The notes beneath the pieces were generated by a model. The model did no database searches. It saw nothing but the letters and a program-made list of their open reading frames with translations, and was not told the DNA's origin. A stretch of 64,000 bases of DNA, taken from positions 145,966 through 209,965 of the forward strand of contig MOYA01000002.1 in assembly GCA_001899315.1 (NCBI GenBank), written 5' to 3'. Made by a program: the position numbers and the translations under genes. The stretch's first letter is position 1; each line of letters begins with the position of its first letter. This DNA comes from Candidatus Obscuribacter phosphatis (GTDB lineage Bacteria > Cyanobacteriota > Vampirovibrionia > Obscuribacterales > Obscuribacteraceae). Positions 37,595-37,994 of the stretch are shown here, in pieces.

Positions 37595-37994
37595 ACAAGG
37601 GCCCTTTTGTTACTTACTTACTTACTTACTTACTTACTTACTTACTTACTTACTTACTTTCTTTCTTTCTTTCTTAGTTAATCAGTGGCTCGGACCTTTA
37701 TTGTGGTGAGCTTTTTTCTTTCAATTTGAACTAGTATCTCAAATTTGATTGTTGGTTATTCATACCGAAGTATTTAGAACTGTGCAAATAATACCGCCTA
37801 TTGCTCAATTGTACCCGCAAGAAAGAAAGCCGGCGCGTTTGAAAGATTGACGAAACCATGAGCTGGCTGGTCTTTGCTGAGAAAGTGAACTGAAAGGGGT
37901 TAAGGCTATAGTGGATTTATGTAACCTTCATAAAATTGAAGGCATATAAATTGAAAGCCCTGGCTTTGCAGGGCTTAGCTCAATTTGAGGAGAG
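37595..37994. other. Non-coding region between the two-component system and the GT20 gene
   Basis: About 400 bp without a gene. It holds the microsatellite at 37610-37673 and an AT-rich stretch. A short inverted repeat CCTTCA-taaaat-TGAAGG (37925-37942) lies next to a TATAAA at 37945-37950, and a hairpin agccctg/cagggct (37956-37975) lies just upstream of the GT20 ribosome site. The inverted repeat could be an operator and the hairpin a leader structure; neither matches a known riboswitch. Confidence 0.5.
37610..37673. repeat. Tetranucleotide microsatellite (TTAC)12(TTTC)4
   Basis: Twelve perfect TTAC units (37610-37657) followed by four TTTC units (37658-37673). On the minus strand they read (GAAA)4(GTAA)12 and end 15 bp before the response-regulator start codon, in its leader or promoter. 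Confidence 0.97.

Follow-up and report, generated by a model that had tools for sequence, protein, structure and literature searches.

A tetranucleotide array in the probable 5′ leader of a two-component regulator operon of Candidatus Obscuribacter phosphatis

The regulator operon and the repeat before its start codon

Candidatus Obscuribacter phosphatis is an uncultured non-photosynthetic relative of cyanobacteria. The genome studied here (G000) has 5,494,645 bases in 8 contigs with about 49% GC; the published assembly of Candidatus Obscuribacter phosphatis EBPR_351 has 8 scaffolds, 5.5 Mb and 49.4% GC (PMC4040986). The window is a stretch of 64,000 nucleotides from this genome, in which a two-component regulatory operon lies next to a divergent sugar cluster. 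Two congeneric genomes, G001 and the sister G002, were used for comparison, giving three in all with one per species. The features of the locus are as follows.

35557..36942, minus strand: sensor histidine kinase (2CSK_N, HisKA and HATPase_c), its start overlapping the end of the regulator
36926..37594, minus strand: OmpR/PhoB-family response regulator, 222 aa; the best NCBIfam model, TctD, scores below cut-off
37595..37609, minus strand: spacer CAAAAGGGCCCTTGT with the Shine-Dalgarno AAGGG, conserved in the sister as AAAGGGTCCTTGC
37610..37657, minus strand: (GTAA)12 microsatellite (TTAC x12 on the plus strand), the nearest unit 15 nt 5′ of the regulator ATG
37658..37673, minus strand: (GAAA)4, continuing the period-4 tract (TTTC x4 on the plus strand); in the sense direction it precedes the GTAA units
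37674..37800, minus strand: remainder of the putative 5′ leader, unmatched elsewhere in G000 and in both G001 and G002
37808..37813, minus strand: putative -10 box (TACAAT) of the regulator; it would place the start of transcription near 37801
37841..37856, minus strand: direct repeat GTTTC-N6-CTTTC with 11-bp spacing, a candidate OmpR-type operator, 27 nt before the putative -10
37881..37896, minus strand: second direct repeat, CTTTCAGTTCACTTTC, conserved in the sister, between the divergent promoters
37995..39470, plus strand: GT20 gene (trehalose-6-phosphate-synthase family), divergent, the first gene of the sugar cluster

The assignment of the regulator to the OmpR/PhoB family follows from its Pfam scores, which lie above the cut-offs for both Response_reg (101.4 bits) and Trans_reg_C (68.2 bits). 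The NCBIfam equivalog cut-offs were missed for TctD (229 of 337 bits) and for QseB (200 of 345 bits). Downstream of the regulator is the sensor kinase, which is QseC/TctE-like, and next to it an MGH1-like glycosidase. On the divergent side the GT20 gene is accompanied by a debranching-type enzyme, a GT4 glycosyltransferase and a trehalose-phosphatase-like gene, confirming the view of the first-pass annotation that the regulator adjoins a saccharide locus. The intergenic gaps of the sugar cluster hold tandem repeats of their own, a 7/49-bp repeat at 43102-43230 and a 17-bp repeat at 41653-41734; no counterparts of these were found in the gaps of the sister, the first of which is about 150 nt shorter than in G000.

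On the sense strand of the regulator the sequence reads (GAAA)4(GTAA)12, then the 15-nt spacer, then the ATG at 37594, a start backed by relatives whose regulator proteins align from residue 1. With partial units counted, the TTAC tract covers 37610-37659 and the TTTC tract 37657-37675, overlapping at their edges, and the perfect part of the GTAA array is 50 bp long. Re-examination of the sequence thus bore out the coordinates, unit counts, 15-bp gap and Shine-Dalgarno given in the first-pass annotation. The array is not a chance product, since five first-order Markov simulations of 1.84 Mb each, equal to the genome sample, produced no tetranucleotide array of at least four units. It also has the long perfect simple-sequence tract typical of contingency loci mediated by such repeats (12 GTAA and 4 GAAA units), and is of the slippage-prone class to which it had been assigned. 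Proneness of the GTAA tract to slippage is plausible, and its unit number probably varies between cells.

The upstream region in the genus

A consensus sigma-70 scan of the regulator upstream region found no promoter, so the one described here is a proposal. The layout of the GTTTC-N6-CTTTC direct repeat and the putative -10 is also present in G001, G002 and G014. In general form (a CTTTC-like direct repeat with 11-bp spacing and, 27-28 nt further on, TANNAT) it sits at -66 to -84 relative to the start codon in five relatives, G001 among them, against -262 in G000 and -286 for G002. Matches to this layout arise by chance at a rate of about 5% per 600-bp upstream region, and a genome-wide pattern search for further sites of this kind gave three matches, one of them for the reversed control pattern. 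The direct repeat and TACAAT look like the regulator's own operator and -10 element, which would make this an autoregulated-looking promoter. From it, transcription would begin about 205 nt upstream of the ATG, and the array would occupy approximately +128 to +191. Because the promoter layout common to the relatives puts the start of transcription so far upstream, the array most likely lies within the transcribed 5′ leader of the regulator; granted this promoter, the placement of the array in the leader of a two-component regulator is very likely. The two CTTTC-N6-CTTTC-like direct repeats at 37841-37896, in the region separating the regulator gene from the divergent GT20 gene, are kept in the sister and are candidate operators that would tie the sugar cluster to the two-component system.

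Gene order in the regulator and sugar cluster is the same in all three genomes. The regulator protein of the sister is 100% identical to that of G000 (90% at the DNA level), and that of G001 is 73% identical. The GTAA/GAAA array is absent from the orthologous regulator leader in both congeners, as comparison of the intergenic regions showed. This goes against the phase-variable control suggested in the first-pass annotation, which had proposed counting units in related genomes: the relatives keep the cluster and carry no array. Persistence of a tract at one gene across close relatives is a feature that supports, rather than strictly defines, a contingency locus, and in a set of only three congeneric genomes a functional switch acquired recently would give the same picture. 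A search of genome contigs with the regulator returned distant regulators with identities of at most 56%, and no strain of O. phosphatis.

In the intergenic alignment a far-upstream block and the ribosome site are conserved, and the sequence between them is not alignable. Within this unalignable gap the leader of the same regulator in the sister contains a minisatellite with 4.5 copies of an 18-bp unit; no tandem repeat was found in the regulator leader of G001. The 129 nt of leader that precede the array occur once in G000 and have no counterpart in G001 or G002, and a mobile or dispersed repeat was therefore rejected as their origin. A known RNA element was likewise rejected, there being no Rfam match in the leader, as was a leader peptide; the upstream open reading frames have 3-18 codons and none is conserved by inspection.

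Tetranucleotide arrays elsewhere in the genome and the order

Arrays in G000 were counted in 2.24 Mb of surveyed sequence and by pattern searches. Four other sites with tetranucleotide arrays of at least four units were present in the 2.24 Mb, and the whole genome has (TTAC)/(GTAA) arrays of at least four units at three loci. A gene starts within about 120 bp downstream of several of the longest arrays, in two cases a response-regulator gene; enrichment at response regulators was considered and set aside, since two cases noticed post hoc among few arrays yield no usable statistic. Short tetranucleotide repeats are no more frequent before genes than after them (11/1569 upstream vs 21/1559 downstream). 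When six other arrays, five from G000 and one from the sister, were compared between these two species, all six differed: in the other species the array was absent, reduced in length or degenerate.

GTAA arrays of at least five units were found at 7 loci in 40 genomes. Since four of these begin at or near a stop codon, the repeat grows in non-coding gene tails as well as in leaders. The four (L120:4403-4427, L219:9776-9801, L221:9136-9161 and L222:1739-1763) occur in four genomes of the order; the genes end in Ser-Lys-stop (AGT AAG TAA) or nearly so, and the repeats supply spare stops in all frames. Another GTAA array of about 12 units, containing a single N, lies directly before the Shine-Dalgarno of a small gene (L119:4557-4608, G000:C3:594556-594607). 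This gene, at C3:594626, encodes 106 aa with no family match, and at the corresponding place the sister carries an AAGC/AAGT array that is shorter and degenerate. A composite TTGT/TTGG array of about 150 bp, also with a single N, is located between two genes (L191:8181-8327, G000:C2:548181-548327) and is absent in the sister; 3.5 kb away is a pentamer, GTTGA x9.4 (L191:11781-11827).

Repeat length and output of the regulator

The first-pass annotation had drawn from the array the possibility of phase-variable expression of a whole two-component regulon. A translational frame switch is impossible, because every reading frame of (GTAA)n meets a TAA stop within 12 nt and the conserved start at 37594 follows the array. 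A switch in -35/-10 spacing is disfavored: the putative promoter is at least 129 nt upstream, and on that reading an array downstream of it cannot change either -35/-10 or operator spacing. The distance from Shine-Dalgarno to ATG does not depend on the number of GTAA units. When this number was varied in silico from 2 to 30, predicted accessibility of the Shine-Dalgarno fell from 0.61 to about 0.40 and was flat at 0.39-0.44 for n = 6 to 30, a prediction that does not cover effects on mRNA stability or S1 binding; a switch by RNA structure is disfavored on this constancy. The position 3′ of the putative promoter, the stops in all frames, the flat accessibility and the absence of the array in the congeners together weaken the case for phase-variable control, which no result of this analysis supports.

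The array is best explained as an ordinary, recently expanded tetranucleotide microsatellite in a long, fast-evolving 5′ untranslated leader of the regulator operon, a reading to which we give a probability of roughly 70%. The ancestral leader would have been short, as it is in the relatives, and would have lengthened in the lineage of O. phosphatis and its sister. Strand slippage may then have enlarged a GAAA/GTAA-like seed beside the Shine-Dalgarno in O. phosphatis, and in the sister may have yielded the 18-bp minisatellite in its own leader. Regulator output is expected to respond to unit number not at all or in a small, graded way, because promoter spacing, Shine-Dalgarno-to-ATG spacing and reading frame do not depend on the unit count; the tract would be neutral or weakly tuning.

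It is unlikely that the array is a contingency locus, in which slippage of GTAA units alters the stability, transcription or translation of regulator mRNA and produces heterogeneous subpopulations with differing states of the two-component regulon. Twelve perfect units adjoining a ribosome site would suit such a locus, a second response regulator of this genome has (AACA)8.8 abutting its putative -35 position, and there are precedents for tracts upstream of genes. The AGAT tract of Moraxella catarrhalis uspA2 has a similar unit number, lies outside and upstream of the open reading frame (by 132 bp), and acts in a graded rather than frame-dependent manner, changing mRNA up to 3.37-fold (PMC7302503). 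For uspA2, however, both length polymorphism and mRNA effects have been measured, and it encodes a surface protein, whereas the gene next to the GTAA array encodes a regulator. Another tetranucleotide tract upstream of a Moraxella gene, GTTC, changed mRNA minimally (PMC7302503), which weighs against the contingency reading, as do the absence of the array in both congeners and its place downstream of the putative promoter. The TAAA tract of Neisseria meningitidis nadA (4-13 units) is likewise intergenic, but it lies upstream of the core promoter and changes the spacing between operator and RNA polymerase from there (PMC2791445). In Haemophilus influenzae, phase variation of surface structures is mediated mainly by tetranucleotide tracts, which are polymorphic between strains (PMC2651432). 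The GTAA array is of the same repeat class and of comparable length, but it is for the H. influenzae tracts that phase variation and strain polymorphism are established.

Less probable again is a constant leader element, in which a purine-rich, unpaired array would serve as an S1 or standby ribosome site or as an all-frame stop, its length being of little relevance. The array is purine/A-rich, adjoins the Shine-Dalgarno and has TAA in every frame, and the small gene at C3:594626 repeats the arrangement, with the degenerate array in the sister. TAACTGA heptamers reach as many as 169 sets per genome in Beggiatoaceae and some cyanobacteria, most of them overlapping the ribosome site, and a role as binding sites of translation regulators has been suggested for those near start codons (PMC4679880). 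Like the GTAA array these are short tandem repeats near start codons, with stop codons in their units and, in their case, strain-specific positions (PMC4679880). The GTAA unit, however, is a tetramer rather than a heptamer, and an intact Shine-Dalgarno follows the array. In place of many sets genome-wide, mostly before starts, G000 has three GTAA loci of at least five units, one of them at a gene 3′ end. A constant element also fits poorly with regulator leaders in G002 and G001 that lack such a tract, with the scarcity of GTAA arrays in the 40 genomes and their frequent location at gene 3′ ends, and with the lack of upstream enrichment of short tetranucleotide repeats.

It would be a long shot to regard the GTAA tract as a hypermutable rheostat, driven by slippage in a 5′ leader, on a two-component system that in turn governs the divergent trehalose-type cluster, providing bet-hedging in an environmental, non-pathogenic bacterium. 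That the unit number of 12 is an assembly product, either a consensus or a truncated count, is very improbable: EBPR_351 is a population assembly from 2x150-bp reads (k-mer 63, scaffolded with SSPACE; PMC4040986), and the two single-N joins in the surveyed stretches of G000 both sit within tetranucleotide arrays, so the assembly broke there, but the GTAA array at 37610-37657 has no N, its 50-bp perfect part is shorter than both k-mer and read and could thus be spanned, the doubt touches the exact count and not the existence of the array, and the genome is itself presumed to be that of EBPR_351.

If the tract did tune the regulator, contingency-type control would extend to the two-component regulon of a bacterium living free in wastewater, the cited cases being host-associated pathogens. 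As it stands, the microsatellite illustrates mainly the fast turnover of intergenic tandem repeats in the genus, and cautions against taking every leader microsatellite for a switch. By its position, the (AACA)8.8 array of the second response regulator is a stronger candidate than the GTAA array for spacing effects of the nadA type. It lies at L119:5270-5304 (G000:C3:595269-595303), about 80 bp before the ATG at L119:5385, and ends at the would-be -35 of an apparent promoter whose TATAAT follows at L119:5328-5333; the sister retains this TATAAT and does not have the array.
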